Positions 16,801 through 59,642 of a stretch of DNA of 64,000 nucleotides are shown here, piece by piece. The notes under the pieces were generated by a model, which was given only the letters and a program-made list of their open reading frames with translations, was not told the origin of the DNA and did not search any database. The position numbers and the translations under genes were made by a program. How positions within the stretch are numbered: the stretch's first letter is position 1; each line of letters opens with the position of its first letter. The stretch covers positions 930,001 through 994,000 of the forward strand of contig JBBELK010000636.1 in assembly GCA_037783545.1 (NCBI GenBank), read 5' to 3'. The DNA comes from Henricia sp. BOLD:AAB3569 (lineage: Eukaryota > Echinodermata > Asteroidea > Spinulosida > Echinasteridae).

Positions 16801-19800
16801 TGTGGACTCTGTGCTGCCCGACTGGAACCTCCGCATTGGGGCTCTTCTTGCCGGTGTAGGAATAGTATGAGTGGTGCCAATGGACTGGCCTGGGGAAGGG
16901 CGGCGGTGCTTTGGACGATATCTCCTTGAGATTGTGGGTTGGCAGGCTGCAGGTCTTGAGGATGTTACTGATGGTTGAATAGACGTCCCTCGTCAAAAGG
17001 CTAACAGTGACTGGTCGAAAAATAAGGTGACCTGACCAAAAATACACATTATATTGTCAGTTTGGCAGTAACAGCATTTCTTTAAAAAAAAAAAAGAAGT
17101 GTTTTCACAGCTTGGATTTTGGATTTTTTTCAAATTATTTTTTTCAAATGACGATCGGTGCATGCGTTATGTGATGATGCTCATTGTGTCGTCACTAAGA
17201 ACAATTTGCAAGTTTGTTGTAATGGTTAATTCACACATGCACTGAAAATCACTGAATTATAAAAAAAAATTTCGTTCAACATGTTCAAGCTAATTCTGTG
17301 TTTTTCAGTGCGTTGTTTAACCCCAAATTCCTTCCACACCGCTTTTTCTCAAAGCGACGCGCGTGGCAATCACACGCAAAGCTGGCTCAGTGTGAAGTTG
17401 TGGCTGCGTTCGGGCGTGTACTCCTGCACACACGAACGTTTAGAATAGACCTTTATCACAGTGCGTCCATCTTTGTCTGGTTTCCCACTGCATAGTACAT
17501 GCAGCCTTCATGCCGCAGGCATGATCAGTGCGTGTGCGTGTCTGCGCGATAGCTCGATAGCACGTGCAGTCTTCCGTTGTTTTGAGAGAATCAATGTCCG
17601 CGCTGCGCATTTTCTTGATCGCACTGCGCGCATGTCATCGACTGTGATGCACACAGTGAACATTTTCAACACGGGTCCAAACTATTTTATTTTCGGCAAG
17701 CCTCGCTTTGGTTACGTTCATTTTAATAGGGGAAAAGGGAAGATGGCCGCACCGTGATAAAGGTCTATAACGACACTCGAGTCAATGAAAGTATGCCTCG
17801 CTACTCCCCAGACCAATGGGGAGTGTGCTCTTACTCATGTGATTTGTACGAAGATGGCGGAATATGGGTGGGATTTTGGGTGAATTTGCCCAACGTGTCA
17901 ACTGGATACCTGAAACAACAACTCACTAAGGTTTGTTTCAGACGGCATCGAAGGTTCTCTCGACTTACGGTCTGTATTTTCTTCAGTTTCTTGTAAGCAG
18001 TGCAACAGCGTTTTTTGTGCAGTCCTGGCAAGAGATGGCCATCTTGACTGATGGCCATTCGCGCATGCGGACTTTGGACTTGCCGTTCGCGTAAGGTGAC
18101 CCTAGTGCAATGCGTACGCATTACTCCAGAGTAGCGAGACTGCACGCCTGAACGCAGCTTGTGTGTGCGAAGAGGGCGTTGTGCACGTCATGGATGCGCG
18201 CTGTTTGATTTATGTAACAACGCAAACCGCACGGTCCATGCACTGGAAAAAGCTACGTCCCAGCTATGGTGTACAGGGAATGCGTCCTGGGAAAGATAGT
18301 ACATGTAGTTGCCGTTTTCCAATATTCTCAGTTTTTATTAAGTAATTGGCAATTTAATCTCCGTTTCCTTTTTTCCGGAACACCCGGTATATTAAGGCTC
18401 GATTCCCTTTTCTGAAAACCATCTTACCTTTATCTTCTATCTGCTTGGTACGTAAGTAGAACTTCAAATCCTTAGGTTTTAGCTGTGAAGATGGTTCTCT
18501 TATGTTATCTAGGTGGGCATACAGCTGCTTAAGGGAATGTTCATTAATGGCCTGTAGAGGACAGAAATTCAGGTTAAAATAATCTCAAATTTGGACTGTA
18601 TTTTCCCTTCTGAGAACAGCATTTGTGGTGGTGTACTTATGTTTCAAATGTGGAATTTTGGCGAAAAAAAGAAAAGCTGTTGACTCCAGAACCACAAGGG
18701 CAGGAAAAGGCACTGATAAATTGTAATAAGAATCTTTTGGTTCATTTAAAATGACTTATCAAGCATCAATAAGTGCAAATTTGATATACACTACTCAAAA
18801 AAAGTTAAGGACCACTTTTTTCTTAACTTGTAATTTTTTTCCAAGCAATGAGTGAGGTCTAGTTCTTTCACTTTTTGTTTGTCATTTTTTGTTTCGGTTG
18901 CCATAGGCGATGCCTCCCCACACCATGATGCTGCCTCCCCATAACGGTCATGTTCTGCAATACAGGGGTTGGCAAATCTCTTTCCTGCTCGCCTCCAGAC
19001 TCTCACACGTCCATCATTGTGGTCGAGGGAGAATCTGCTCTCATCTGTAAACAGAACACGGCGCCATTGCTGTTGGGTCCATCCGACATGCTCCCGAGCC
19101 CAGTTGAGACGGATTCTTCTATGAGCAGGGGTGAGTGGGCGAACTGCGCTGGCCTTCTGGCATGCATATTGGCTCTGTGAAGTCGGTTACGGATTGTTTG
19201 AGTGGAAACAGTCACTCCAGTGGCAGCAGCGAATTCATTATTGAGTCGACGTGCACTGTGGAAGCGGTTGCGGAGGCAGAGATTCGTCAAGTAGCGATCA
19301 TCTCTTGGGGTTGTTGCGGCTGGTCGGCCACTGCGGGGTCTCTCTGGCTGCGTTCGGGCGTGCAGTTCTCGCTACTCCGGAGTAATGCGTGCGCATTGCA
19401 CTCGGGTCACATTACGCGAACGGCAAGTGCACAGTCCCCATGCGCGAATGGCCATCAGTCAAGATGGCAGTCTCTTGCCATGACTACACAAAAAACGCCG
19501 TTTTACTGCTCACAAGAAATTGAAGAAAATACAGAACGTAAGTCGTGAGAACCTTTGATGCCGTGTAAAACAAACCTTAGTGAGTTGTTGTTTCAGTTAT
19601 CCAGTTGACACGTTTAGCAAATTCACCAAAAATCAAACCTATATCCCGCCATCTTCATACAAATCACATGGCATTCGTCAGGAGTAAGAGCACACTCCCC
19701 ATTTGTTGGGGAGTACCGAGAGCATACTCTCATTGACTCGAGTGTCGTTATTCTTGCCGTTCGCGCGCGCAGGAGTATGCTCGTGTTAACACGAGTACAC

Positions 19801-29741: not shown

Positions 29742-30788
29742 TTACTCAAGGTTTGATTCAACTTTGTCCGCATCTTCAGGAGCAGAGTCCTCTTGGAACA
29801 CTGCAGGCTCACTTGGTGTTTCATCAGCCTGCGCACTGGTTGCGACATCAGCGATAATGTCCTGCAGTTCTTGCATACTGCCCTCGCTTGAGCCAGTTTC
29901 AGCAGTAAGGCCCGGAGGATCGACAGCTTCACTGGTGGCAGCAGCTTCAAGATTTTCCTCGGTGTCTTGACTAGGACTGCCAAGATTTTGGTCCACTGTG
30001 AGAACAGTCACCATCATGGTGCCCTCCTCACTCTGGACAATCTGCAAGGATTCGTTTCCCGAAGTCTGCTGCATGGCATTGTGTATGGCTTCTGCGTCTG
30101 CCTCCGAGAGCTGTATGGTGTTGCCGTGCTCGTCCATGATGTGATACTGCTGCTCCAGCTCTTGCTGGTTGGTCAGCTTTGTTGAGTCTTCAGTTTCAGG
30201 TTGTGCTTCTTTTGAGAAGTCATCACCGAAAGAATTGATGCCGTGCACCTCGAACAGGTGAGTAAGAAGCTCATGCTTGTGCTTGAAGATGGTCTTACAG
30301 CTGCTGCATTGCAGTGGTTTCTTCTTGCTATGCAGATTCAAGTGTAGGAGAAGCTTGGACTTGTCTCGCGATGAGAACGCACACTCCAGACACTGGAAGC
30401 GGAACATGTTCTTGTGGGACTTCTGGTGCTGCAGCAGGCTGTAGTTATCGTGGAAGACCTCTGGGCAGACGCCGCACGGCATGGCTTCTTCACAAACTGC
30501 ATGCATGTGGACGATGTGCGCCTTTACGTCGGCCGGTTGGTTGAAAACGGCATTGCAGTGGGGACACTTGTGGCTGGATCGCAAAACCGTGTGCTTCCAC
30601 AGATGCTCTTTCAGGCTGCTTTTTTGGGTAAAGCTCTGGTCGCACATGCCGCACATGAATGGCTTCTCGCCAGTGTGAACCCGCATGTGACGTTTCATCC
30701 GGTAGCCTTCGGCAGCGGTGTAGCTGCATAAAGCACACTTCGCCTTCTCTTTCGGCTCTTTCGACACTTTTGTCTTCTTGTGCTTCAT
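29742..30788 (-). CDS. Short CTCF-like protein with six C2H2 zinc fingers, single coding exon, 348 aa
   Basis: Seen: an intact frame from ATG at 30788 with an in-frame TGA four codons upstream, so this is the first possible start in the exon. Six C2H2 fingers occupy residues 18-182, joined partly by TGEKPF-type linkers, followed by an acidic tail. The fingers correspond in order to human CTCF fingers 5 to 10 (family knowledge): HMRVHTGEKPF, KSSLKEHLWKH, HQKSHK. The tail block MDEHGNTIQLS...DAEAIH (residues about 218-236) is shared almost exactly with the large CTCF-like gene at 45.5-59.6 kb, so the two are paralogues. It lacks the Q-rich N-terminus, the cohesin-type YDF motif and fingers 2 to 4, so altered DNA binding is expected. 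Same strand as its paralogue, with a FLYWCH gene between. It could be an expressed regulator or a partial-duplication product that stays open; the intact frame favours function. Confidence 0.85.
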   Translation of the reverse strand: MKHKKTKVSKEPKEKAKCALCSYTAAEGYRMKRHMRVHTGEKPFMCGMCDQSFTQKSSLKEHLWKHTVLRSSHKCPHCNAVFNQPADVKAHIVHMHAVCEEAMPCGVCPEVFHDNYSLLQHQKSHKNMFRFQCLECAFSSRDKSKLLLHLNLHSKKKPLQCSSCKTIFKHKHELLTHLFEVHGINSFGDDFSKEAQPETEDSTKLTNQQELEQQYHIMDEHGNTIQLSEADAEAIHNAMQQTSGNESLQIVQSEEGTMMVTVLTVDQNLGSPSQDTEENLEAAATSEAVDPPGLTAETGSSEGSMQELQDIIADVATSAQADETPSEPAVFQEDSAPEDADKVESNLE

Positions 30789-34615: not shown

Positions 34616-36154
34616 CTACTGGTTATCATCACTCTTGCCACTATTCTCATCACTACTACTACTGCTATCTTCATTGTACATGTAACTATCAGCAATACTG
34701 GGCTGAAATCCAGCAATCCCGTTCACGATTCTGTCCGTGTACGTCTTGTTTTTCATCTCCCGTACCCTTGCAGCCATCCTAACCAAGTTAATGGCCTTCA
34801 TGTCCTCGGGTATCTCTTTGTCACCCATTTCCTGCGAAAGAACCTCCCTGACTATGTCTTGTGTAGGCTGTAGTAAGTCTGTAAGCGCTTTGGCCTTAAT
34901 CTTGGACGTCACTAATGACTTCAACACAGCGCCCTCTTTAGGGGGATGGTTGTGTCCGTGCTGTCCTTTGGTAATCACTCCTTCCTCGGATTCCTTAAGT
35001 GTTGACTGGCAGAAGACTTTCTTGTTCCTGACTGTGCACTGCCACACCACACATCTACCGCTTTTCTTGATGTTGTAGGTGTATCCGTCGCTATCAATGA
35101 GCCTCGGATGACCGCGTTGTGATGATATGTGCATCATTTGGTAGGCCGTTGATTCTGTCTTTGGTAGCGACTCCAAGGGCCGTGGTTCAATGGGAGAATC
35201 TTGCAGTTGCTCAACTGACTTTGCTCGTCTTTTACCAGCAGTTGCTGCGTTCTTTGTGCACTTGACACTTCCATTTCCTTTCTTGGGAGTTACTTTCAGT
35301 ATCATCTTAGGCCCTTCCTCGACGTGGAAGCTTCCGCGATGACAGTGAGGTTTAGAACCGCAGGTAAAATTTCCACCGACTTGTTCTAAAATGGCAGGAC
35401 ACTTTTCGTCCGTCTCTTTGAAGACACACTTCCAGACAGTGCGATTACGTTTTAGTTTTTTGACAATGTACATAAAACCATTACGTTTGTCGTAAAGTCT
35501 TGGCCTGAGATAAATAAGTGCCCCGAGCTTTTTCGGTATTCGCTTCTTTTCCGTTTTCACAACACCAGCTTCCGTCATTGCAGTCGCTATCACATCACCG
35601 GCTTTACCTTTCTTTTTTCGTTTCTTTCCTTTGCTTCCTCTTTGCATGTCATAGATGGCGTTCACCTGCGACTCGAGCATGTGAATGTGCGGCTGGCGTC
35701 CAGGGCTGAAGCTGCCGTTTTCTTGCTTGACGGTGGCCGCGCATACCAAACCTCTGCGGCGCGCGGTACACTGCCAGTCGGTGGTGCCTTGCTTCCGTAT
35801 CCTTTTGACATTGTACATGTAGCCCAAGGCGTCTACGAGCTTGGGTTTGCTGATCCGCGTGTATTCCTTGGTGCGTCTGCGTTTAACCTTTGAAGGTGTT
35901 ATCGAGGATTGTACCTTTCTGTACAGCGCTTCATCTACAGAATGGTGTTCTTCAATAGGTACATGTACAACCTCCTCAACATGCATAGACTCATCGCCAT
36001 GTTCATGTTCAACATGCACAGACTCATCGCCATGTTCATGTTCAACATGCACAGACCCATCAATAGGCACGGAGTCTACAGACGCACTTAGCTGGTTGAC
36101 TGCTATCTCAATCACTTGCTGAACTGCAAGATCTTCTATCATGCTCTGATCCAT
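34616..36154 (-). CDS. Protein with three FLYWCH-type zinc-finger domains, 512 aa
   Basis: Seen: an intact single-exon frame. Three FLYWCH-like units lie at about residues 105-158, 219-272 and 350-403. Each has GY/GF-x-Y, then W-x-C, a second Cys, and a C-terminal H-x-H (W127/C129/C138/H156/H158; W241/C243/C252/H270/H272; W371/C373/C382/H401/H403). The N-terminus is acidic with an 11-residue repeat (VEHEHGDES) in two copies. Basic stretches KRRR (91-94) and GKKRKKKGK (175-183) may be nuclear signals. The tail is Ser/Asp-rich. FLYWCH domains bind DNA or mediate protein contact in chromatin factors such as Mod(mdg4) and FLYWCH1. The gene sits between the two CTCF-like paralogues on the same strand. 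Insulator partners carrying FLYWCH domains are known in flies; a partnership here is only a guess from position. Confidence 0.85.
   Translation of the reverse strand: MDQSMIEDLAVQQVIEIAVNQLSASVDSVPIDGSVHVEHEHGDESVHVEHEHGDESMHVEEVVHVPIEEHHSVDEALYRKVQSSITPSKVKRRRTKEYTRISKPKLVDALGYMYNVKRIRKQGTTDWQCTARRRGLVCAATVKQENGSFSPGRQPHIHMLESQVNAIYDMQRGSKGKKRKKKGKAGDVIATAMTEAGVVKTEKKRIPKKLGALIYLRPRLYDKRNGFMYIVKKLKRNRTVWKCVFKETDEKCPAILEQVGGNFTCGSKPHCHRGSFHVEEGPKMILKVTPKKGNGSVKCTKNAATAGKRRAKSVEQLQDSPIEPRPLESLPKTESTAYQMMHISSQRGHPRLIDSDGYTYNIKKSGRCVVWQCTVRNKKVFCQSTLKESEEGVITKGQHGHNHPPKEGAVLKSLVTSKIKAKALTDLLQPTQDIVREVLSQEMGDKEIPEDMKAINLVRMAARVREMKNKTYTDRIVNGIAGFQPSIADSYMYNEDSSSSSDENSGKSDDNQ
35984..36052 (-). repeat. 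33-bp in-frame coding repeat in the FLYWCH gene
   Basis: Two near-identical 33-base copies encode the 11-residue unit built on VEHEHGDES. It is a coding minisatellite that keeps frame. Confidence 0.85.
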
Positions 36155-36261
36155 CTTTGTCCACTCTTAAAAGGGAAACCCCTTTAACACAGTCCCATAC
36201 AAGCAAATCCAGGCTTTTTCTGCTACAGAAGCCCACAGCCCAACGGTCAAATGGTTGTTTT
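36155..36261 (-). promoter_or_regulatory. Probable 5' UTR and splice acceptor of the FLYWCH gene
   Basis: The acceptor gctatcttttcag ends at 36262 on the minus strand, 107 bases before the ATG. This suggests at least one untranslated exon further upstream. Confidence 0.45.
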
Positions 36262-45469: not shown

Positions 45470-47665
45470 TCACTGCTCCTCGACAAAGAGGTAGATGGTT
45501 CCATCATCCGCACCCTCCTCCTCTTCCTCCTCCTCCTGGGTTTGATCGATTGGTTGATTGGCTGGGACAAGAATGGACTCCGTCTGGGTGATGACATTGG
45601 GTTGGTTTTCAGATTCAGGTTCAGCTTCTGCTTCTGCTTCGTTTTTCTTGGGTTCAATCTTGGTTTGTGGTGGAACCATCGTCGGTAGGCCATCATCTGA
45701 TTCATTGTCGCTTTCGGTCTCAGTTTTCTGAGCTTCCTGCTCACTTTTTTCAACTTTTAACGTGATGGCGGATGGATCTTCTAGATTAGGGACATTCTCG
45801 GCTTCTAGCTGATTTTGGGTTGCATCTTCGACAGGTTCTTGCGAGGTGCTAGCACCGTTTTCCTCCTGCATCAGGATGTTTTCAGCCACATTTTGCACTG
45901 GCTGCTCGGGAGTCTGAACAGTGGCAAGGGATCCATCCACTATCTGGAGATTCTCGCCTAGATCTGCGACAGTGCCGTCGGGATTCTGAGCGACGGTGAG
46001 CACGGTGACGGGACCTCCCTCTTCCCCCTGGATAATCTGCAGCGTGCCGTCTGCAGTGCCCTGCTGCATGGCAGCGTGGATCGCCTCTGCGTCTTCTTGG
46101 GAAAGCTGCAAGGTGTTACCGTGCTCATCTACAATCTGGTGCTGTTGATTTGCCATTTTCTGCCTACGGCTTATTTTCTTGGTGGGAGAACTACCCTCAC
46201 CTGAATCTTCTCGTTTGCGTTTCATGCCAGGTTCGAGGTCCAACTCGAGCTGGGTGTTGTGCTTCTTTTGCAAGTGATTGACAAGGGTCTGCTTGTGTTT
46301 GAAAGTCTCTTGGCAGTCTTCACAGTTGTAAGGCCGTTCTCCTGTGTGGACCCTCATGTGAACCACAAGGTGGCGCTTCTGCGGGGCTGAGTAATCGCAC
46401 TCCAGACACTGGTAGATCTTCTCACCCTTGTGCGACTTCTGATGCTGTGTTAAGCTGAAGCGATCAGTGAAGCCGTTTTCACAGATTTTGCAGACGAGCG
46501 TCTGCCCTTGCGTGTGCATCTTGCGAATGTGGGTCTTCATGTCAGCATGGCGGCCGAAGGTCGTCTCGCAGTACTCGCACTTGTGCGCCGGGCGAGAGCC
46601 AGCGTGCTTCCAAAGATGCTCCTTTAGACTGCTTTTCTGGGAGAAGCTGTGCTCGCATTCACCGCACTGGAATGGCTTTTCACCGGTGTGAACCCGCATG
46701 TGGCGTTTCAGCTTGTAGTTGTCTGTGCTGGCGTAGTCACAGAGCGTGCACTTGTATGGCTTCTCTCCAGTGTGGGATCGCATGTGGCGTTTGATCTTGC
46801 TGGCCTCCACACTGTAGTAGTCGCACAGTGGGCATTTGTGTGGTTTCTCGTGCGTGTGCATGTATTTCATGTGGCGCCCCAACTCACCCGACGTTCCAAA
46901 GGCCTTCTCGCATAGCTCACACTTGTATGGCTTCGTGCCGCTGTGTGTGTTGAGGTGGTTTCTCAGGAGCGTCGACGTACGGAAGATTCGGCCACACTTG
47001 TTGCATTCGTGAACCTTCGGCTCTCGGGGGCTGGAAGGGGTCTTTTTGGCTCGCCCAAGAACCTGATCAATCAGACGGCCGTCGTCAAACTTGGGAACTG
47101 TGTATTTTTTACGCTTCTTGGGCGAGTCCTTGTCATCGAGGCTTGGCTTAGTGACTGGTTCCTCGTCATTATCACCCGCGTAGAAGTCGTAGACCGAATG
47201 ATCCTGGATGGTTCGCTGTCCGTCCTCGCCCTCTACAACCTCTCGGACTATAACAATCTGGGTGTTCATCGGAACCACCACTTCCTCATCCTGCTCCCCC
47301 ACCTCTACGGATTGGCCTTCTACAGACTCCACTTCAGTGAAAGCAGCAGCGGAACGTTTACGTGGCGACCTACGAATTGTGATAACTTTTTCTTTCAAAG
47401 AAGGCGGTATAACGCCTTCCTGTATAGCCGCTGCGTTAGCCACAGCCTGTTCCTCTAACTCCTCTTGTGTGACCTCTCCTTCGGGATCTGTCACGACTTC
47501 TTCGCCGTCCTGTTCCACTTCCTCGCCGGACTGACTGACCTCAATGGCCTCGTGTGAGACCACGGTACTAACCTCGGTCATCTCGGCTCCTGATTGGTCG
47601 GAGCTATCTCCCTGAACGATGGTGTACACTTGGGTGGTGTTGGGAGCACTGTCGCTGGATGCTTG
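45470..47665 (-). CDS. CTCF: CTCF-like exon 8: YDF motif, nine zinc fingers, acidic tail
   Basis: Acceptor tttgtcaacag; 731 codons plus stop. Order: QASSDSAPNTTQVYTIVQGD, a long acidic stretch, IRRSPRKRS, then DHSVYDFYAGD (codons for Y and F near 47183-47191), PKKRKK, nine C2H2 fingers at about 45.0-5 codons spacing with TGEKP linkers, KRKRED, the block DEHGNTLQLSQEDAEAIH shared with the short paralogue, and a Glu-rich end. All fingers lie in one exon, unlike vertebrate CTCF, whose fingers are divided by introns. Confidence 0.93.
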   Translation of the reverse strand, partial: QASSDSAPNTTQVYTIVQGDSSDQSGAEMTEVSTVVSHEAIEVSQSGEEVEQDGEEVVTDPEGEVTQEELEEQAVANAAAIQEGVIPPSLKEKVITIRRSPRKRSAAAFTEVESVEGQSVEVGEQDEEVVVPMNTQIVIVREVVEGEDGQRTIQDHSVYDFYAGDNDEEPVTKPSLDDKDSPKKRKKYTVPKFDDGRLIDQVLGRAKKTPSSPREPKVHECNKCGRIFRTSTLLRNHLNTHSGTKPYKCELCEKAFGTSGELGRHMKYMHTHEKPHKCPLCDYYSVEASKIKRHMRSHTGEKPYKCTLCDYASTDNYKLKRHMRVHTGEKPFQCGECEHSFSQKSSLKEHLWKHAGSRPAHKCEYCETTFGRHADMKTHIRKMHTQGQTLVCKICENGFTDRFSLTQHQKSHKGEKIYQCLECDYSAPQKRHLVVHMRVHTGERPYNCEDCQETFKHKQTLVNHLQKKHNTQLELDLEPGMKRKREDSGEGSSPTKKISRRQKMANQQHQIVDEHGNTLQLSQEDAEAIHAAMQQGTADGTLQIIQGEEGGPVTVLTVAQNPDGTVADLGENLQIVDGSLATVQTPEQPVQNVAENILMQEENGASTSQEPVEDATQNQLEAENVPNLEDPSAITLKVEKSEQEAQKTETESDNESDDGLPTMVPPQTKIEPKKNEAEAEAEPESENQPNVITQTESILVPANQPIDQTQEEEEEEEGADDGTIYLFVEEQ

Positions 47666-50600
47666 CTGTTGACAAAAGTGAGAGGATACTCAGGATAAAT
47701 AATCAACATGTCAAAATGCAGGTAAAAATGATATCACCCTACAAGTCAATTCAGTAGCATGCCAATGCACCGACAAAGCTCGTTCCCAGGTTTTTTTCCA
47801 TACCAACACTGCGTGTCAACTCATTACTATACATTTATGTAATTATGTAATAAAATTTATATTTCTGAACCTATTGTTTAACATATTTGAAATACAGTAA
47901 AACCCGTCTACAGTAGCCGCCCTCGGGACCACAAAAAAATGGCCACTATAAACAAGTGGCCTCTTTATAGAAGTTGCTTAACCCTTTAGTACACAGGGCA
48001 GTCGCTACTTGCTAGCGACCGCCCGAGACAATCGAGTTCCGAAGCAATCTGTGCATAAAAGGGTTAAGCATTATACACATGGCATTTGAGAGTTTTGGAA
48101 CGAAGGGTGTGTACCGATATGACCAACATAAATACAACCTTTCTCCTCAAGGTGAATTGGGCTTATTACGTGTACTATTCATCCTCAAAAAAAGGTTTGG
48201 AAACTCGAGTTTGACTTACAATTTCTCTCTTGTTACCGAGTCATTTTCCTTGTATATGGTATAATTGGATAGCCCTGTTATTCCTCTGTACAATGATGTG
48301 TCATTGCTATTGTCAAAAAGTGTCAAAAGGGGAATGCACTGTACGACAATAGCAGTACGACAATTTTATGACATTTTACTTTATACCCACCCCCGTGTTC
48401 AGCTGTGCTGCACATACCCCACTTGCTTAATCACACATCATTGTAAAGATGGGATTTCCAATGATACCAAATTCAAGGAAAATAATTTGGCAACAAGAGA
48501 GAATTCGTCAGTCAAACTTTTCAAACGCTTTTCAATGATCCAATACCAGTCTTTATATTTATGTTCGTATGTGGAATGTGTAGTCTAGGAACCAGCCTGA
48601 AATGACTGCAAGAAAATGTAACAAACCTGTGTGAAGGCAATCTGGGTTCCATCTTGCGAGACAGGGATAAACTGCTGCATGTGGCTGTTCTCATAGACAA
48701 TGCTGTTGCCGACAACGTTGACCGGCGCTCCAGTACTGCCGTCATCCTGCATGGCCACCATCAGTACCTACAGTACACAAGGCAATGTGTTCATGACTTA
48801 GGTTCTTTTGGGCCAAGTGTTGTGAATGGGTTTGTCCCTGAAGTTGGGTCACACTTTGTGACATACCACACTCAAAAACTGTTTCTCATTCCAGCCCAAT
48901 ACCCATTGCAGAGAGCAAAGCATATTTCACTGGGGTAAAAATACTTGCATTAGTACGTACGCATAAAATGCCAACTTTTTAGACAACCCCCCTCTCCCCC
49001 TGTACGCATACGCATTCCATAAATACAACTCGGCATTGGTACTTGTAAGCATTGGTAAATGGTTCAGTACTACATGTATAGTGCTATAAACTACTAGTAC
49101 AATTCGCATGTCTGAAATAAATGAGATTTATTTTGCATTTTTTTAAAACTTAAAATGACATCAAGCATCAGTAACTGCAGACTTAATGGAGAAACCTAAT
49201 TTGAGGAGTGAGAAAAATGTGAGATGTGTGAGAAAAATGTGTGGCCTGTCTAATATGTTTTGTACATAATGTCTGAAGCCATGGTCAACTCGTCCATTCG
49301 TTCCAGATTTACTAAAAGCAAATTTTCGGTTTGCGTACATACGCATTGGCTTGGACCCCCCTGTACGCAATGTCAACAACTCCCCCTCGCAACACCCCTC
49401 CATGCGTACATACTTTATGGACAGCCCCTTATGGTGTACCAAAGTACATATCTAGTAAAATTTCTTCACACTGATTAAAGGCCCTATAGATGATCTGTTT
49501 TTGAGCAATTCTGGGAATAAAACCATTATAAATCAAAAGAAAGACATCAACAAACTCATCCAAAGAAATTTCAGCTCTGTCAAATGTACCACGTCTTCTA
49601 AAACATGAAAATCCATATGCGTTTTACCGGTCTTGGCTGGGTGTTTCAGATATTCTTTCTTAGTTAGTCGCGTCATGCACTCTGTGGCACGCGTCATACT
49701 GCGTGTGTGCGCGACTCAAATGATGCAATAAAAAAATGCATTGCGTTGGAACAGCATACACGCAGTACACGGCGCCCATTTTGGACCGCGCAGATAAGGA
49801 AATCGTTTGCAAACGATCTAAATAATTTCATCTTCATGGACTACTTGGATATTTATTGGATATATGCTACCAGTTCAATCTTTACTTTGAGCGAGGTTTT
49901 CCCCGTCAACTCGTTATTTAACTTTTGGGGTCACTGCAAATTATACAGTGGGCTTTAAACATATGTGGTTTCCATGTAGCATACAGTAGGTAAAAAATTA
50001 TCTCATAATTAATGAGCGTGTCCAATGAAAACATGCATGAATATAGCTGGGCACTATATCATACACGGTAGATGCTACATGAACACTACTGTATTTTGTG
50101 TCCCAACTTTGGGAATGACTCAAATATAAATCTGCCAACACTGACTAAATATGAGGATGATTACACTACTTCTATACCTGCCAACATTGCCGAGTAAAAA
50201 ATTGGACTGTAGTGAAACTTGCAACGGTCAAGTTGGTACAATGGTCAAGTTGACCTAGTACTGCACCCGTTTTCATGTACACAAGACATGCGGCACGCGC
50301 GGGGAGTCAGGTCAAGTCGACCGTTTACCAACTCAACTTAAATACCACTTCGCCTAGCCCAGGATGGACGTCATTGTCTTCATTGCATTACGACTATTCG
50401 CTATGTAGTATGCGGTAAGAAGTCCAACCTGAGCTACATCTCGCGTAAATTAGTCTTGGTTCAAAGACGCCTTTTGTGGTGCGCGATTCGATTCATCATT
50501 CGTGCAGTGCGCGCGCACATTATATTAAATGCGTTTCACTATAACAGCGCTAAGAACGTCTTGAATTGGACAGTACTGTGTGTGCGTCATGATGTTGTAG

Positions 50601-53600
50601 CAATATGCCTGGTCACCATGCACGGCCGCGGTATGCACAGTCAGTGCGGCAGAAACCCGATACCATCGGGGTTGGGCTTCGCAGTTGGGTTGTTTCTGGT
50701 ACAACGGTACAGGCGGTGGATAAGTGCTAGACTCAGTCAGCGTCGGCCACGTGCAATGCATGGTAAATATATGGTAAATTTTGTGTGCATGCAGTTCTGT
50801 GTACATGAAGTGCGATCAAAAATCATGTTTTTTCCTCTCATGTTTTCAAAAATCGTACTGTTCCGATTTTCAACACTTAAAAATCGGAACAAATACAATA
50901 AAACCGGACTCGTTGGCAGGTATGCATTCAAGGTGTTTGTGTGGTTTTCTGTGCGTCGTTTCACTCAAAATTCTCTTTGCCAGTTTTTTCAAAGCAACGT
51001 ACATGAAAAGGCCCAATGCATTAAAAGGCCCAATGTGAACCCGCATTACAAGTACCTGTTGCTGTTGTTGGACCATATTGCCATGCTGGTCTACCTGCTG
51101 CACCATAACCATCTGCTCTCCGTCCATGTTCTGAAGCCCTTCGATGCCTACCGGGGAAAACAAATGTTTGGTGTTCAATATGTTTATACTTGGCAGATCA
51201 CAATGTGCATGCATCAACCTTGAACACTGGCACTAAAATGCATCATATGAACTAGGGATGGGAATTTATGGTTAATTCAGAAACTGGTTTGCAATTCTTT
51301 CAAGTGTCGGTTAACCGGTTAACTATTCGGCCGACACTAAAGGTTGTTGCTGGTGTTTATACATATGCATGTGCAATGTACACAATACCCCCTAGGGCCC
51401 CAAAATAATAATTGAACCTTTATCTAGTCAGATTTTTTTTTGACCCCACATAAATTTATTTCAGTTTCATGAAGTCATTACAAATAACCCCACTATTGTA
51501 AATTCTTTAAAATTGGGTTTCGTTTAAACGTTCGGCAAAACCGGTTTTTCAATTTTTTTTTGGTTAAACGTCTTATCCCTAATATGAACCGCACATACGG
51601 CTATAGTTGCTTCCAGTTGCAATGTCGATGTACGCTAGACTTAAGGCGACTGTAATAATTCTGAAGTACCCACCTTGTATTGTGATGTTCTGTTGTCCTG
51701 CTAGACCAGTGCCTTCTATGCCCTGTATGAAGGCCTGCCCCATGGAATCATTAGGGTCGGCTACAGTCACTACTGGCTGGGCCTGATGGTTACTGCCATC
51801 TTGACTAACAATCTGCAATACAATATAAGTATCATAAATTTACAGAATGGGTACATTGTACATACATGTACAAGTTTGCCTGTACAAGTTTGCCTGTACA
51901 AATTTGAACTGAGCCTGCCGATGATCAACATTTTTTAAAACAGGTTTTCGGGGGTGAAATCGATCTAGACCACAGAACTCCATTAAAAACTAGAACGGAA
52001 ACGGAGGCCGTACGCGCATAGCCGCGCCTTCCATTAGCGGAGTTTTGCGCACCTTCATTTGCATATTTCTGGGCACCATTTGGGGTGTTATGGCCGAGCG
52101 GTCTAGTGCGTCGAACTCAAGTTCCTGTGCCAGTAGTACTAGAATGTGGGTTCGATTCCGGGCCGTGACACTTGTTAAACAAATGTACACAGGGCACAGA
52201 ACTCTCTAAACAGCCAATCGCATACTGCCTGGGACGCATATAACTCGAGCATTCTCATGAGCATATTTTCTAACGCAAAATGCGCTACACACGCACACAA
52301 ACAAAACCAGTCAAAACTGGTTACGGTGTGCATGTGACGTCTGTATAAATTGCTTACATGTGCTTCTCTGCATCCTCAAAGTTAAAGGACGTATGAAAAA
52401 GGATTTTTATTACATAAAACTATAGTACAGGATGTGTTTTACACATTTCAATCAATTTCAGAGAATTTGATAGTTGCGTTTTGGTGTAATTGCAAGTTTT
52501 CTATTTTTATGCTAATGAAATTTCCATATTCATGAGCAAAGCGGTGATGTCATCTCAGCACAACAGAGGAATTCTCCATAGACTTGTGTACAAATGTTGG
52601 TGTCATTTTCAGTGGTTTCTTGATATCATGAACTGTATCAGTTTACTGAGTTTGTTTAGTATGTCATTTGCAACAATCCTGACAAGTTTGTTTGAGCCAA
52701 AAATGGATTAGTTGGGTACTGTTACTGTTTGAAATGTAATGTTTTTTCTTTGTTTTTCAACTGTGGGTTCCCTCCATGAGTAGCTTTAAACAGCGCCCTC
52801 ACCTGTCATGAAAATTTTGAAGTAAAGAAAAGGTCACTACTTTCTGAAATAAAAACAAATTTGAGTTTGCCCCTTTGTCTGCAGCAGTTTGATCCTTTGA
52901 TTTGTGTATAAAACCAGCTTGTTGTTAATGTTCACTTCACAAATCTTTTAAGTAAAATACTTTGAAAAAAAAAACCATTTGAATACCAAATAAGTATTTT
53001 ACTGCAGTGAAAAACCTATCCACTTACGATTTTGTCTTAAAGATTGAGTACATGATTGGTAAACTGTTAAACACGGCGTACATTTCCACTCGTAATTAAA
53101 AGCATATGTCGAGAAAACTGCCTTGTAGAAATTTCAGCCACATAGATGCAGTAATACATTGCCTAGGCTACTAATAAAATATGACGTATTCAACTTTGGC
53201 AGTCTATTGGAATAAGCAGACTTACAGCCTGAGTAGCAATATTAGCCGACGCATTGGCCAGTAGTTGCAGAGTCTGTGTGATGTCCATGGCTGTTGCATC
53301 TTCCATATGTGTAGGCTGAACGTCCTCTTCATCTAAAAATACAGTCAAAAGATAAATATCATTATATAGGCCTTTTTCCTAATCTCGGCTTCGTCTCCGT
53401 CTCCGGCTCCGTCTTCATTCCGCCATCTTGAAGCCGTATACCAAACTTTGGCTCGGCTTCAGGCTTCATTTTAAGGCTTCGTTTTGGCCCAAATGAGGCT
53501 CCAAAACGAAGTCAACTAAAGAGGTGACTTCGGTCGGCTTCGTGACGTCATGAACTGGAAAATCACGTGACAGCAACAAAAACTTTGTGAACTTTTGCAG

Positions 53601-56600
53601 GTTTGCTAAACTTTGCCGCCGACAAAACTCGTCTGCTAGCGCTTTAAAAAAAGCCGGTGAAAAAGAGTGGTAGGCCTACTAGGCCCGACTAGTGTTCCAA
53701 ACGGTTTTTGGTTTGGCTTCGCTAAAGTGAAGCCGGAGGCGGTTGGAGCCGGAGCCGCATGAAGCCGGAGCCTGAAGACGGAGTCGAGATTTGGAAAAGG
53801 GCCTATGTATTCTGATTTGTTCAATGCCAGTAAGGGCCGTCTAAAGTTGTCAACATTTTCACAGTTCTACAGAGAACGCTCGCAAAGCTGCCACACAGCC
53901 CGAATGCACATCTGCTATAGGACAACACTTGCTTGATCACCCGGAGTGCTCGAAACAATACAGCAAACAGCAGTCCACTATACTGGCCAGAGCACTCAGT
54001 ATCATGCATCTGCACATGCTCGAAGCCGCGTACATACACTTCACTAAACCTGTGTTATGTCGTTAGAAAGAATTTGTTCACACGCTACATGTGGTCTAAC
54101 TGCGCTTGCGCAGTAGCGTGCTCCCTGCTGTTGTCAGCTGACCAATCAGCGCGCAGCATTCTGGACATGTCATTCCCGCTTTAGCCTTATACTATATCGA
54201 TAGCGTACCCACGCTATTCTTGCGTTTTGCTCTGATGAGTGCAAGTCGAAAAGCTTTAGCATGTCTTTGTCGTTACTTAATTATATATTCCGAGTTCTAC
54301 AAAGCGTAGTATTTTTCAAGACACCCCTCCCTCTCCCCGAAATACTACTTATGAACATTTTTTTGTCACTAACATGAAATGTCAAAATTTTACACTGCAT
54401 GTAAAGTCCTACGCGGCGGCCCTCGACATCCCCCACCCCCCTTCCTACGCTTTGTAGAATCGTGAAAATGGTGTCAACTTTGGACGACCCCTAAGGCTGG
54501 ATTTACACAGCCATTTCACACATTAAAGGCACAGGCTCGTCAGCAGTGCGCGCGCGCCAAATTCGTGCCACGAAATACGCAGCTTCATAGCAAAGCCATG
54601 GAGCTGCGTATTTCATGGCACGAATTTGGCGCGCGCGCATTGCTGATGAGCCTGTGCCTTTAAAGTGCATAAATTTGAGGCACATTGCTTTTAGAAAAAC
54701 CAGCGTGGAGGGAATATGAAGTGAACGAATGCACTGAAAATCACAGAAACACAAAAAAAAAAGCCGCCCAAATTGATTCTGTGGATTTCAGTGCATCATT
54801 TGACTGGTGAATTTGGAGTGAAATAATTTTGTACGAAAATAGCGGTCTGTGAGACTGCAGCCAAATTTACGAAAAAGTGTAATTATCACAGGAATGTTGC
54901 GCAGCTTACGCAATAAAAAAGTTGCGCAAGCGGGCTTACGCAGTGCGTAAGGATTCGTAAAATCGGCTGCTGGTCCATTGAGCAGGGAATGCTCTGTTAG
55001 TTAAGCCTACCGCACAAAAAAGCTATTTGCTGAGCAAAAACTCACCTGTAGTCAATTGCTCAGCACAGAGCCTGCTAAATGGAATCGATTGACAAAACTC
55101 ACTGTGCACTGTGCAGAGCCGAAATGAATGAATGACCTCCCAACACCATTACATTTATGTGTGGAAATATCATTCGTAATGTAGGCTTTACAATGCTAAC
55201 CTTGTGGCTGGATGACCTCAATTAACTGCTGTGGCACGACCATGTCCTGGCTCCGGCCAACACTGACCGGTATTGGTTGATCAGCTTCTTCCACCTAGAA
55301 TACACGTAAAAAGTACAGTATTGGTCAACTTTCAAAGTTGTTTGTAAAATTGAGTGTTAAGACCCTCTCACACACAGAAAAATCTCGGGCACGAACTTCA
55401 GGAGTTGGCGAATTCGGGAAACTCTTGGTAAAACCCTTGGTACGAGTTGTCCCGAGTTTTACGAATTAGGTAGGAGTTTCCCAAGTAAGTCACGAGTTAC
55501 TTATAGCCTTCCAAACTTACTGTTAATCAGTTACGAGTGAGGCACGAGTTTGGTATGAGTTACCTGTCTTTAGCATTTTGCGTGGGATTTGGCGCCAAAC
55601 CATCTGGAATTTCACTGACTCTTGCAACTCGTACGTGAAGTCTGATAATTCGTTGACAACTTGTACAACTCGTATCAAATTATACTTAAACTCGTGTGAT
55701 ACAGTTTGCTACGAGCTGTACGAGTGGCCTACGAGTTATATACGAGTTGCATGAGTTTGCTCCGAGTTGCACGAGTTGCTGACGAGTTGCTGACGAGTTG
55801 GCAACTCGTGGCCGAAGTTTTAAACATGTTTAAAATTTTCACCACGAGTTGCGCGCTGCTACGAGTATGTAGAAGTTGCTACGAGTATGTAGAAGTTGCT
55901 ACGAGTTGTTACAAGTTGTTACGAGTTACATGAATCATCTCGAGTTGTCCCACGAGTTTCCCCTCAGTTTCCTAAATTCATCAACTCGTAAAGCTCCTGC
56001 GGCCTGCGCCTGAGATTTTTCCGAGTGTGAGAGGGCCCTTAGGGTTAAATCGTTCTCATGTTTTGGGTACATGTAATAACAAGTAATGATGTTGTTTAAT
56101 GGACCTCTCTCAAATGGCCACGTGCATTAGAATCTTAAGTGTAATTTTGTTGCGACGTGCACTGGCTACGCTGTATTTCGAACAAATACTGAGCAACACG
56201 TGCTCGTGTTTGGAACATTTTCAACGATGTGCGTACACGTACATGTACCTGATTGCATTTTTCCTACGAAGATGGCCGCCTGTGAGAGTGGTCTATTCAC
56301 ATGGCCAGTAATCGTTCTCTGAAGTAGTGCTGTAACGAAGTTCACAAGTTCGGGTTCGGTTCGGCAAAAGTTTGAAAAATTTCGGGTTCGGCAAGTATTA
56401 CCGGCGATGTGGCTTAACGTGCAGCTATTAGTACTTTCTTTATAGAGCATGCATTTTTTAAATCTCCAAACCCGCTCTTTTACATAAACGGTTTATATGT
56501 CATAATGAACAAGATAACAGCTTTCGTGGGTTGAAATTAACCTGGAAAACAGGAACGGAATCCGCGGCCGATGTGACACGTGGAGCAATTGTCGGAACTT

Positions 56601-57801
56601 GCGGGATGTGCATGCATTTTGTGCATGTGATTTGCACCACGCGTGCAAAGTGTATGCACGGTACCGTCGTGGATGGTACATTTTCCTGGCCAATGGGATT
56701 CATTTTCCGACGATTAATTGTTTGTCGGGCCCACAAGTGTCGCTGTTTTTCTGTCCGGGGGGTGCCTATTAATTTCTGCAAAAAAATGCTTTTCACAACA
56801 TTGTGCGAATAATTCTGTCCAAGAAAATCCGGTAATTTAAACGCTGCCGATACGCCATTTTTATTATGCAAATGTATGCCGCGCCACTAGAGGGCGTTTG
56901 CAATCAAACCTTTCTGATAAATCGACAGTTATTATCAGCAAATCGTGCAGATGACCACTGCGTTGTAACTATGGCTTTGGCACGTTGTGGTGATGAAGCC
57001 AATACAATATTTGATCGGCACCGATCGAGTGACGTCCATGTTGATATCGATCATGAAGTCATATGGATGGAGGAAGGGAAGTCATGTTATGCATGTTGTC
57101 GGCCGGGCACCGGGCCAAAAATATCGGGTCTGATTCAGCACGGAAATTGCTTTGTACAATGCATGTGACGTTCAACAGTTATATGAAGTATTTTTGCAAG
57201 TATGGGAAGTCATTTTGAGTGCGTTTTCGACATTCAGGAAGCCAGCTCTCTTTCACATTTACAGTTAAAATATGTACAAATGTAAGATGTAAAATCCAAA
57301 GTGAGCCATTTCCGAACAGCCGAACTGAGTGAAATGTTCGGTTCGGTTCGGAAGTGCCAAGTTCGGTAAAATCCTGTTCGGTTCGTCCGTTCGGTTGCAG
57401 CATTACTTTGAAGCCTGGTATTATAAAAATTAATTTCAAAAGTGTCAAGTCGTAAGGGGGACACCGTCGCGTTTTCATGGAATGACACTCATTATCATGG
57501 TAAACGTCACATTTTGGCTCTCCATTGCCTAAAGTGAAATAATGACTGAAGTTTATCGCGTACAAGTACCTGCATGGGCTCGGCAACAACAATATCCTGA
57601 TCTTGTACAGGCATAGCCTCCTGTGCCTCCATAGCCTCCTGTGCCTCTATAGCCTCCTGTGCCTCAATAGCCTCCTGTGCCTCAATAGCCTCCTGTGCCT
57701 CCATAGCCTCCTGAGCTTCCTGCTTGACCATGCTCTTAGATTCGGTAACCTCATCCAAGGATTGTACATCACTTTCCAATTGCTGTTGCTGCTGCTGCTG
57801 T

Positions 57802-57849
<48 letters not shown>

Positions 57850-59642
57850 ATTACAACTTGTTCTGGGAGTTCTGATAGAGTAACAGCCACTGCAGCAACC
57901 TGTCACAGGGATTTGGTTAAAAGTAAATGTGTCATATTTAAATTTCAGATGTAACTGTGCTAATAAAGCATTTGTAGATAACAACTTTCCAGTAAAAACC
58001 TTGAATGTCACAACAACCAAAATCAGAGTTTATCATATAGTTTGCACTTTTGACGATCAATATGTCAAAACAAGAAAAAAGAAAGAGTAGTAGAGAGATT
58101 CTGCATTCCTTCCGAGCTGAGTTGACATTAAAAGCACAGGCTCGTCCGCAAATGTGCGCGCGCCAAATTAGTGCTACGAAATACGCAGCTCCATAGCAAA
58201 GGCGTGGAGCTGCGTATTTCGTGGCACGAATTTGCCGCGCGCGCATTGCTGACGAGCCTGTGCCTTAAACTTAATTTGGAGCTTTCGATTGCACGACGGT
58301 GGTGTGAAATACACCGAAATGTCACCTTGGGTTGTTTTGGCATCGTGTGGAGAACGACGACATAGCTTGGTCTACAGACATCAGACAATGCATTTTCGGA
58401 TTACATAACTGATTAAACATCTTCGTGAAAGTCGAAATGGATGTTAAGTAGCACGGGAAATTGTGTGCAAGGACGGTCGCGGTCAGCTTTTCCCTCTGTA
58501 GTGTCTCTCCGTCGTCCAATCGAAAGCTCCTCATTGCTGGAGTAAAGGACAGTAGCCTCTGGCTCATGCCCTGCTGAGTTGGCCCTGATGCCCCTTCAAG
58601 AAAATACACGTTCTGAGACCAACTTGGCCAGCATGCACTATCCTCCTCATTTCATGAGGCTTGTACGGTATACACCAAAAACCAGTACAAAAAACCTTAT
58701 CGACGTTCTCATGGCATCATGGGATTGGATGACAAACGAGGCTGGCAATTTTCACACAAACCTATAGGCTCTGGGGACATGACAACGTTCATCGATTTCA
58801 TTCTCATTTCTGTGAAGCGATTGACATGTGATCTTCCCACACGTTCTTCGTAAAGGAAAGATGCAATTTTTGACAAATATCATTTTTATTCTAACTGTAG
58901 TAAAATGAAATAAAATGAGAAAATTAAAAATAATGCACAGCACCAGTTTGTACTTTACAAAAGAATGCACCTGATTGGCTCTAACGTGGTGGCTCAACCA
59001 ATCATGACAGCCCTTCTATAATGCTACAAACTGGCACCGTTCAAAAAGTCAAGTTTTCTTAGTTTATTTCATCTGAGCTCAATTAAAATCAAAATCAAAT
59101 TTGTCAAAAATTGCATCTTTCCTCGATCAAAAGCGCGTGTGAAGATCACATGTCAATGGCTTCACAGAAATGAGAATGAAATCGGTGAACGTTGTCATGT
59201 CCCCAGAGCCACATAGGTGTGTGTGAACATTCCCAGCTTCATTTGTCATCCAATCCCATGATGCCTTGAGAACGTCGATAAGGTTTATTGGAACAAAGTT
59301 TGCATCGAACAAAATCAAGGCTGGAGGTCTAAATATACTGAATTGCCAAACCTGTTCAAGTTGGTCCCGACTTTCAGCACTCTCGACAACATCCCCAGCC
59401 CCTGCAGCAGCTGGAGCAGTTGTTGAGGACAGCTCCTCGTTGAAGTTCTGCAGGTAGGTCTCCAGCACGTTGATAGAGGCTGCTGCAGCGATGCTGTCTG
59501 CTGTAGCTGAGCCATTAGTGACAGCGACGTCCTCGGATGAAGTTTTGACGTCCGTTGTTTCGCCCCCTGCGCTGTCCTCCTCGGTCGTCTCATCCACTGA
59601 CAAAACGGCCGGAGTTTGGTCAACGTCTGTCTCTGCCTCCAT
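45470..59642 (-). CDS. CTCF: Large CTCF-like protein, 8 coding exons, nine C2H2 zinc fingers, 1129 aa
   Basis: Seen: ATG at 59642; exons 59352-59642, 57570-57899, 55201-55294, 53226-53332, 51674-51812, 51056-51147, 48627-48767 and 45470-47665 join through GT-AG borders with every phase matching. Order: acidic Ala/Ser-rich start; poly-Q and EAQEAI repeats; a Q/V-rich N-terminal half; SVYDF at residues 555-559; KKRKK basic signal; nine fingers at 617-867; then an acidic Q-rich tail. The fingers match remembered human CTCF fingers 2 to 10 in order (RNHLNTH, TSGEL, YKLKRHMR, HQKSH). Fingers 1 and 11 are absent, and the other fingers diverge more than is usual among bilaterian CTCF proteins. Known: CTCF binds insulators through fingers 3 to 7 and stalls cohesin through a YDF motif. 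Inference: a nuclear architectural factor, either a divergent CTCF or a CTCFL-like paralogue. A 6-finger relative lies 15 kb downstream. Confidence 0.85.
47895..48080. repeat. Repeat family AC, copy 2
   Basis: GCCGCCCTCGGGACCAC, ATGGCCACTATAAACAAGTG and GCATTATACACATGGCATT as in copy 1 at 7.4 kb. Confidence 0.72.
47982..48063. mobile_element. 82-bp MITE inserted at TTAA
   Basis: CCCTTTAGTACACAG at the left against CTGTGCATAAAAGGG at the right, flanked by TTAA. Copy 1 of family AC lacks the insert. Confidence 0.78.
48627..48767 (-). CDS. CTCF: CTCF-like exon 7
   Basis: Acceptor gtactgtag, donor ACAG/gtttgt; 47 codons in phase 0. Encodes VLMVAMQDDGSTGAPVNVVG and QQFIPVSQDGTQIAFTQ. Confidence 0.83.
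48768..51055. other. CTCF-like intron 6
   Basis: Contains CGTACGCATACGCATTCC-type words near 48.98 and 49.34 kb and the TCGAGTTGGT foldback relative at 50.22-50.34. No exon recognised. Confidence 0.4.
50222..50342. repeat. Foldback of AACTTGACC words, copy 2
   Basis: GGTCAAGTTGGTACAATGGT against TCAAGTCGACCGTTTACCAA. Followed at 50357 by a family T left-end fragment. Confidence 0.65.
51056..51147 (-). CDS. CTCF: CTCF-like exon 6
   Basis: Acceptor ttccccggtag, donor ACAG/gtactt. Starts with two bases and ends in phase 0. Encodes IEGLQNMDGEQMVMVQQVDQ and ends in a Q run (QQQQQ). A 255-codon frame on the opposite strand overlaps it and is judged a chance frame. Confidence 0.82.
51253..51581. 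mobile_element. hAT-like MITE, 329 bp, perfect 8-bp target duplication
   Basis: Ends TAGGGATGGGA and TCTTATCCCTA; ATATGAAC at 51245-51252 and 51582-51589. Inside are GGTTAACCGGTTAAC words. It lies between exons 5 and 6 of the CTCF-like gene. Confidence 0.88.
51674..51812 (-). CDS. CTCF: CTCF-like exon 5
   Basis: Acceptor tattgcag, donor CAAG/gtgggt. Starts in phase 0 and ends with one base. Encodes IVSQDGSNHQAQPVVTVADP and GLAGQQNITIQ. Confidence 0.82.
52083..52180 (+). mobile_element. tRNA-derived SINE head
   Basis: A box TGGCCGAGCGGTCTAGTG, a long variable arm, B box GGGTTCGATTCC. It resembles a class II tRNA (Leu/Ser type) but the acceptor ends do not pair. Confidence 0.65.
52383..52980. 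mobile_element. MITE family J, copy 3 (right end unclear)
   Basis: TTAAAGGACG, ATTCATGAGCAAAGCGGTGA, AACAGCGCCCTC. A stray family A end lies at 53037-53070. Confidence 0.6.
53226..53332 (-). CDS. CTCF: CTCF-like exon 4
   Basis: Acceptor tatttttag, donor GGCT/gtaagt. Starts with two bases and ends in phase 0. Encodes EEDVQPTHMEDATAMDITQT and LQLLANASANIATQA. Confidence 0.8.
53366..53806. mobile_element. Foldback of GGCTTC/GAAGCC words
   Basis: Ends ATAGGCCTTTTTCC and GGAAAAGGGCCTAT; arms of GGCTTCGTCTCCGTCTCCGG type. It starts 34 bp from exon 4 of the CTCF-like gene. Confidence 0.8.
53832..54492. mobile_element. Foldback family X, copy 2
   Basis: GTCAACATTTTCACAGTTCT at the left; CGTGAAAATGGTGTCAACTT at the right. 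Confidence 0.78.
54495..54850. mobile_element. Foldback family D, copy 3, carrying a family B insert
   Basis: ATGCACTGAAAATCACAG and GATTTCAGTGCATCATTTG remain as arms; the left end is split by the element at 54523. Confidence 0.6.
54523..54663. mobile_element. MITE family B, copy 5
   Basis: TTAAAGGCACAGGCTCGTCA to GATGAGCCTGTGCCTTTAA. Confidence 0.9.
54855..54985. repeat. TTGCGCAA-type foldback repeat, copy 3
   Basis: TTGCGCAGCTTACGCAATAA, GTTGCGCAAGC, AAATCGGCTGCTGGTCC. Confidence 0.6.
55201..55294 (-). CDS. CTCF: CTCF-like exon 3
   Basis: Acceptor tgtattctag, donor CAAG/gttagc. Starts in phase 0 and ends with one base. Encodes VEEADQPIPVSVGRSQDM and VVPQQLIEVIQPQ. Confidence 0.8.
55357..56043. 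mobile_element. 687-bp foldback of ACGAGTTG words
   Basis: Ends TTAAGACCCTCTCACAC and GTGTGAGAGGGCCCTTAG. More than 20 ACGAGTTG/CAACTCGT words fill it. In intron 2 of the CTCF-like gene, about 60 bp from exon 3. Confidence 0.82.
56101..56296. mobile_element. MITE family G, copy 2
   Basis: GACCTCTCTCAAATGGCC...GGCCGCCTGTGAGAGTGGTC; interior matches 21.25-21.40 kb. Confidence 0.72.
56325..57405. mobile_element. hAT-like non-autonomous element, 1081 bp
   Basis: Ends TAGTGCTGTAACGAA and, inverted, TAATGCTGCAACCGAA; 8-bp flanks CTCTGAAG and CTTTGAAG (one mismatch). TTCGGTTCGG words sit at both ends. No transposase. It contains the CTCF-like motif at 56884. Confidence 0.78.
56884..56897 (+). promoter_or_regulatory. 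CTCF core motif match (13 of 14)
   Basis: CCACTAGAGGGCGT fits the vertebrate core CCASYAGRKGGCRS at all but the last base. It lies inside the hAT-like element in intron 2 of the CTCF-like gene. Motif match by eye; binding is not shown. Confidence 0.5.
57570..57899 (-). CDS. CTCF: CTCF-like exon 2, poly-Q and EAQEAI repeats
   Basis: 110 codons, phase 0 at both ends (acceptor tgtgacag, donor GCAG/gtactt). Contains an uninterrupted Gln run of roughly two dozen residues from mixed CAG/CAA codons, followed by six or seven copies of the hexapeptide EAQEAI/M. Such tracts are common in transcription-factor activation regions and vary in length between individuals. Confidence 0.83.
57610..57722 (-). 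repeat. 18-bp in-frame tandem repeat (EAQEAI hexapeptide)
   Basis: Six to seven 18-base units encode EAQEAI or EAQEAM and keep the reading frame. Confidence 0.88.
57781..57848 (-). repeat. CAG/CAA trinucleotide tract (poly-Q)
   Basis: About 22 consecutive CAG or CAA codons within exon 2 of the CTCF-like gene, followed upstream and downstream by unique sequence. Confidence 0.9.
58128..58268. mobile_element. MITE family B, copy 6
   Basis: TTAAAAGCACAGGCTCGTC to GACGAGCCTGTGCCTTAA. Confidence 0.88.
58276..58531. mobile_element. 256-bp foldback
   Basis: GGAGCTTTCGATTGCACGAC at the left against GTCGTCCAATCGAAAGCTCC at the right. Confidence 0.8.
58695..59288. mobile_element. Foldback with about 150-bp arms beside CTCF-like exon 1
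   Basis: ACCTTATCGACGTTCTCATG at the left against CTTGAGAACGTCGATAAGGT at the right, continuing through GGGATTGGATGACAAA and GACATGACAACGTTC. It lies 64 bp past the exon 1 donor. Confidence 0.88.
59352..59642 (-). CDS. CTCF: CTCF-like exon 1 (ATG)
   Basis: 97 codons, phase 0 at the donor CAG/gtttgg. Starts MEAETDVDQTPAVLSVDE and is rich in Glu, Thr, Ser and Ala. Directly upstream, tttttttaaatcccag resembles an acceptor at 59663, so the 5' UTR is probably spliced. The frame stays open past the donor into an inverted-repeat element; that extension is not taken as coding because the next exon matches in phase. Confidence 0.8.

Follow-up and report, generated by a model that had tools for sequence, protein, structure and literature searches.

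A probable echinoderm CTCF ortholog without fingers 1 and 11, its SVYDF motif, and a six-finger tandem neighbor

Two CTCF-like genes on one strand

The window analyzed here, a 64-kb stretch of genomic DNA, carries two CTCF-like genes on its minus strand, one encoding nine C2H2 zinc fingers and the other six. The model of the nine-finger gene runs from 59642 to 45470 and joins eight exons in frame into 1129 residues with one terminal stop; the exon borders are of the AG/GT type and the phases are compatible, which confirms, at the level of a sequence-based gene model, the exon chain and protein length proposed in the preliminary description of this DNA. Exon 1 (59352..59642) provides the start ATG, exon 2 (57570..57899) encodes a poly-glutamine tract exceeding 20 residues together with EAQEA(I/M) repeats, and exon 3 (55201..55294; 31 residues) is followed by exon 4 (53226..53332), exon 5 (51674..51812), exon 6 (51056..51147), exon 7 (48627..48767), and exon 8 (45470..47665). 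Exon 3 is the least certain of these, because it was picked by scanning open intervals of the right phase. It came third among the six candidates listed with a crude score, and its likeness in composition to the remaining N-terminal part decided the choice. Exon 8 carries an SVYDF sequence (47183..47197, counted from the exon; residues 555-559), the nine fingers (46259..47005, from finger scan and alignment), a C-terminal part, and the stop, and the stretch from SVYDF to the array is one uninterrupted open exon. A basic stretch follows directly after the last finger (46157..46225, counted from the translation), and further on lies the C-terminal motif DEHGNTLQLSQEDAEAIHAAMQQ (46061..46129, counted after protein comparison), which is common to the six-finger gene. 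The nine-finger gene is presumably transcribed.

The six-finger gene, a tandem paralog that the preliminary description leaves unmentioned, is a single open frame of 350 codons read from its first ATG (29742..30788, minus strand) and lies ∼15 kb past the stop of the nine-finger gene. Its fingers correspond to ZF5-10 of CTCF, it has no YDF, and it shares with its neighbor the C-terminal motif DEHGNT(L/I)QLS. No N-terminal exon or YDF for this gene was found in the window: a tblastn search of the window with the 1129-residue protein matched the locus from ZF5 into the C-terminal part and nowhere else, apart from finger matches out of register in that frame, and upstream exons were rejected on the ground that the matches there begin at ZF5. 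Between both genes, on the same strand, is a 515-codon open frame with FLYWCH domains (34622-36166; 55.5 bits), which closes with its own stop and was therefore rejected as a part of the six-finger gene.

Other features of the window and of the genome were recorded alongside. A Tc3-type transposase match above the Pfam cut-off lies at 19006-19371 on the minus strand, with weaker matches below the cut-off in neighboring frames (18794-20143). Short translated stretches that resemble one another (ARQQCARAKFVPRNTQLHSK... and its reverse) occur at ∼43.7-43.9, 54.5-54.7, and 58.1-58.4 kb, as well as at the two STAG loci of the genome (L056 and L057), which suggests a dispersed repeat. The COX1 gene of the genome has AAA at conserved Asn positions, ATA at Ile, AGA/AGG at Ser, and TGA at Trp, as in the echinoderm code, and an arthropod or other protostome origin, considered at first, was rejected for this reason. 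COX1 is preceded by ND1 and several tRNAs on the opposite strand, an arrangement that we take to be the asteroid order. COX1 is found three times on contig G000:C955 with a spacing of 16221 bases, so that this contig resembles a mitochondrial-genome concatemer, and one more copy is on C2104. C2H2 arrays are crowded on contigs such as C108, C70, C297, C1, and C274, and the contig pairs C387/C882, C15/C596, and C1/C888 hold equal-scoring array copies, which suggests uncollapsed haplotypes.

Finger array and N-terminal motif of the nine-finger protein

The nine fingers align in order to residues 294-548 of human CTCF (7w1m chain H), i.e. to ZF2-10, with an E value of 2.3e-88, and human CTCF is also the best relative of the array among the PDB structures. 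Taken singly, eight of the nine fingers score highest with their same-rank human counterpart, whereas the fifth scores slightly higher with ZF10 (16) than with ZF6 (15). A six-frame finger scan of the 64-kb window revealed no ZF1- or ZF11-like finger near the gene, and the possibility that either is hidden in unrecognized exons was rejected on this basis; the protein thus has nine fingers instead of the usual eleven, and the one-to-one correspondence with ZF2-10 and the loss of ZF1 and ZF11, both noted in the preliminary description, stand. That description had also held the array to be more divergent than expected, which sequence identity does not bear out: identity to human CTCF over ZF2-10 is 55.4% (138/249), as against published finger-region values, for regions not exactly equal, of 44% in fly, 53% in bee, and 52% in Trichinella (PMC2749850). 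Ambulacrarian CTCFs are reported to be more divergent (PMC13317027). The base-contact residues (positions -1, 2, 3, and 6) equal those of human CTCF in 24 of 36 cases over ZF2-10, and their distribution is uneven: all 16 are kept in ZF2-5 (including 12/12 in ZF3-5), whereas ZF6 keeps 1/4, ZF7 2/4, ZF8 1/4, ZF9 3/4, and ZF10 1/4, so that ZF6-10 retain 8/20 and account for all 12 changed contacts. For comparison, 319 windows of nine fingers each, drawn from 39 other arrays in 38 fetched loci of the genome, of which some overlap or are duplicates, reached at most 10/36 contacts and 7/16 for the first four fingers. In a tree of 19 rows in which human is the sole other CTCF and the bootstrap has not settled, the nine-finger and six-finger genes group together (96/90) and both join human CTCF (99/97) to the exclusion of 15 other arrays of the genome.

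Eleven fingers are usual for CTCF but not defining. For example, Trichinella spiralis CTCF likewise has its array on a single large exon, as reported for invertebrate CTCF arrays, and lacks ZF11, although ZF1-10 are kept there (PMC2749850). In echinoderms, the CTCF orthologs of Patiria miniata, Strongylocentrotus purpuratus, and, earlier, Hemicentrotus pulcherrimus are reported to have lost two of the eleven fingers (PMC13317027, 2026). The two-finger loss is therefore not new, and the label of an unusual CTCF, offered in the preliminary description as one of two readings, is right insofar as this is a CTCF with two fingers lost, but the feature had already been published for the phylum. The likeness to these orthologs is one of description; the string "YDF" is absent from the text of that account, which, in the parts available, does not specify which fingers are lost, whereas here ZF1 and ZF11 are gone and SVYDF is present.

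The SVYDF sequence, separated by 60 residues (counted from its Phe) from the first finger Cys, is identical in all five residues to that carried by human CTCF at 224-228 (chain 7w1m_H). When the 616 N-terminal residues were shuffled 200000 times, SVYDF appeared 10 times, YDF at any position 951 times, and YDF within the final 100 residues 166 times, whereas the loose pattern [FY]xF appeared in 25773 (13%); only the exact SVYDF in this position is telling, because the loose form is so frequent. The match to the vertebrate cohesin-docking sequence pointed out in the preliminary description is thus a real one by sequence, unlikely to have arisen by chance. On the cohesin side, the YxF pocket is formed by SA2 Y297 and W334 together with SCC1 S334, I337, and L341 and SA2 L329, L366, and F367, and SA2 R370 matters too (PMC10279526). 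Both STAG copies of the genome keep Y297, L329, W334, L366, F367, and R370 (6/6), and RAD21 keeps I337 and L341 but has Gly in place of S334 (2/3). With the motif and most of the pocket residues present, the protein would be expected to dock onto cohesin through SVYDF. SGO1 binds the same pocket through a YxF motif (PMC10279526), and pocket conservation therefore fits CTCF docking without proving it. Moreover, sea urchin is reported, on the basis of a Clustal alignment, to lack conservation over a 25-residue stretch surrounding mouse Ser224, which is the S of SVYDF (PMC6361588); this counts against a general role of SVYDF in echinoderms. The two STAG copies lie ∼16 kb apart (G000:C219:3068067 and 3084510), with aligned pieces 87-99% identical, and may have arisen either by tandem duplication in recent time or through the assembly.

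Ortholog or paralog, and the roles of the motif and of the neighbor

The other reading in the preliminary description made the nine-finger gene a lineage-specific architectural paralog, which would place a true eleven-finger CTCF elsewhere in the genome, and a genome search and a tree of finger arrays had been proposed as checks. The nine fingers instead of eleven, the changed contacts in ZF6-10, and the tandem paralog, which demonstrates that the family duplicates in this genome, would all fit such a history. Across the whole genome (740.7 Mb in 2104 contigs), on the other hand, the degenerate ZF4 signature VE(V/A)(S/T)K(L/I/M)KRH, with at most one mismatch allowed, was found in seven places (two for the reversed-pattern control), namely the window gene as an exact match and six one-mismatch places at which the finger scan showed no finger, and the ZF3-ZF4 linker pattern was found in the window gene and in two one-mismatch places (control 0). 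No second full CTCF was thus found in the 740.7 Mb by these two signature patterns, and the 216 residues of exon 8 ahead of the array are single copy in the genome. A protein search with the array itself proves little alone, because only 147 of 1343 candidates were scored and the six-finger gene is not among the matches listed; after the gene itself, the other arrays among these matches are ∼43% identical. A second CTCF could possibly escape through an assembly gap or through introns cutting both signatures. Nevertheless, the signature patterns and the single-copy part of exon 8 led us to reject a hidden eleven-finger CTCF, echinoderm orthologs are likewise reported with nine fingers (PMC13317027), and the tree, with its one CTCF species, places the array with human CTCF; a paralog standing beside a true CTCF is accordingly a highly improbable account of the gene. 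By its sequence, we are confident that it is an echinoderm CTCF ortholog, probably from a sea star, without fingers 1 and 11, and it is very probably the resident CTCF of this genome.

Granting that the gene is CTCF, its motif might serve something other than loop anchoring: the protein could work chiefly as a mitotic or a transcription factor, with SVYDF kept for another partner of the pocket or simply by descent. Echinoderm CTCF motifs are reported to be enriched at boundaries, although far less than in zebrafish and without orientation, and not to be enriched at loop anchors (PMC13317027); for sea urchin CTCF, one paper states that a mitotic and not an interphase role is assumed (PMC11457506); SGO1 offers a precedent for a different occupant of the pocket (PMC10279526); and the ZF1 region, which is required for full insulation and whose mutation weakened insulation (PMC7645679), is absent here. 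Set against these observations are the identity of SVYDF in five of five residues and its kept position ahead of the array, the intact STAG pocket, and the modest enrichment of CTCF motifs at echinoderm boundaries itself (PMC13317027), and we consider such a role for the motif a tentative alternative that deserves serious attention, if not first preference. A question of the same kind concerns the six-finger neighbor, which could be a dying copy without function, as the absence of ZF1-4, of the N-terminal part, and of YDF might suggest, together with its identity of only 50% (83/166) to the nine-finger gene over ZF5-10 and its changed contacts in ZF5, ZF7, and ZF9. However, the frame is open over its 350 codons and its six fingers are intact. 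A second copy on a contig of 33415 bases (G000:C1998:17232-18278, L050) encodes a protein 98% identical and is most easily explained as the second haplotype. The copies differ by 7 synonymous and 7 non-synonymous changes (pS 0.033, pN 0.0084, pN/pS ∼0.25; Fisher p 0.012), with no non-synonymous change in the first 198, finger-bearing codons, and the block that bears the frame is 96.8% identical, whereas other pieces are 84-94% identical, except for one 49-base piece at 100%. Decay into a pseudogene is therefore unlikely, and the pattern of substitution is consistent with a frame that is apparently under selection, that is, with a working gene devoid of the docking motif. Vertebrate CTCFL/BORIS is likewise a CTCF paralog without YDF (PMC7471279), but the six-finger gene lacks ZF1-4 as well and groups with the neighboring nine-finger gene (96/90), which points to a duplication separate from that of CTCFL; nothing in this grouping, from a tree that holds no CTCFL sequence, places it within the vertebrate CTCFL duplication.

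Our preferred reading of the locus is thus that of a CTCF ortholog accompanied by a tandem copy that is apparently under selection. In this reading, DNA binding and insulation by the nine-finger protein are predicted from its sequence: fingers 3-7 would read the usual CTCF core motif, as proposed because the contacts of ZF2-5 are unchanged and ZF7 keeps 2/4, with the reading possibly shifted at ZF6, where 1/4 is kept, and ZF9-10 would contact flanking DNA. The N-terminal SVYDF would dock into the STAG-RAD21 pocket of cohesin, and the docked CTCF may help to hold or stop cohesin at the bound sites, whereas for the ZF5-10 copy, which seems to be kept by selection, docking via SVYDF would be impossible. 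The likeness to human CTCF in the order of ZF2-10, the identical ZF2-5 contacts, and SVYDF ahead of the array argues for this scheme; the human protein differs in its eleven fingers and in 12 of 36 ZF2-10 contacts. The retention of only 8/20 contacts in ZF6-10 and the Gly at RAD21 S334 argue against the scheme.

A possible identity with MBF1 and its implications

According to a 2002 abstract, MBF-1 reportedly has nine fingers next to a basic region, and the protein described here has nine fingers with a basic stretch right after ZF10. In S. purpuratus, a gene annotated as CTCF-related has been stated to "rather encode" MBF1, a zinc-finger activator of the H2A enhancer, and CTCF was considered possibly lost in some echinoderms (PMC3784565, 2013). 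The likeness between the two proteins thus lies, by this literature statement, in a zinc-finger protein annotated as CTCF-related, and the difference in that MBF1 is known as a histone-gene activator (PMC3784565). In the literature searched, MBF1, CTCF, sea urchin, and histone occur together only in that paper. Taken with the report of CTCF orthologs in echinoderms (PMC13317027), the simplest joint reading is that MBF1 may be the echinoderm CTCF. COMPASS-like (CMPl) was also considered as the same gene and was rejected, being a homeodomain protein. Taken further, CTCF would be MBF1, would activate early H2A and dock cohesin via SVYDF, and in this lineage the six-finger copy would have become a partner or competitor that is blind to cohesin, independently paralleling CTCFL; we put this combined scenario forward as plausible while holding its chances to be somewhat below even.

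The protein described here is, then, very probably the known echinoderm CTCF in a further genome, and what is new is the six-finger neighbor, the retention of SVYDF together with its pocket, and the MBF1 lead; no prior report of a YDF in an echinoderm CTCF or of a six-finger echinoderm CTCF paralog was found among the top open-access literature matches. Should MBF1 be the echinoderm CTCF, a single protein has been treated in two separate literatures. The six-finger neighbor would offer a CTCF relative that naturally lacks the docking motif. From a wider point of view, the combination of interest is the lack of ZF1 and ZF11 together with an intact SVYDF and an intact STAG pocket, in a phylum with unoriented CTCF motifs at boundaries, which makes testable the idea that the ZF1 region, and not just the docking of cohesin, governs orientation.
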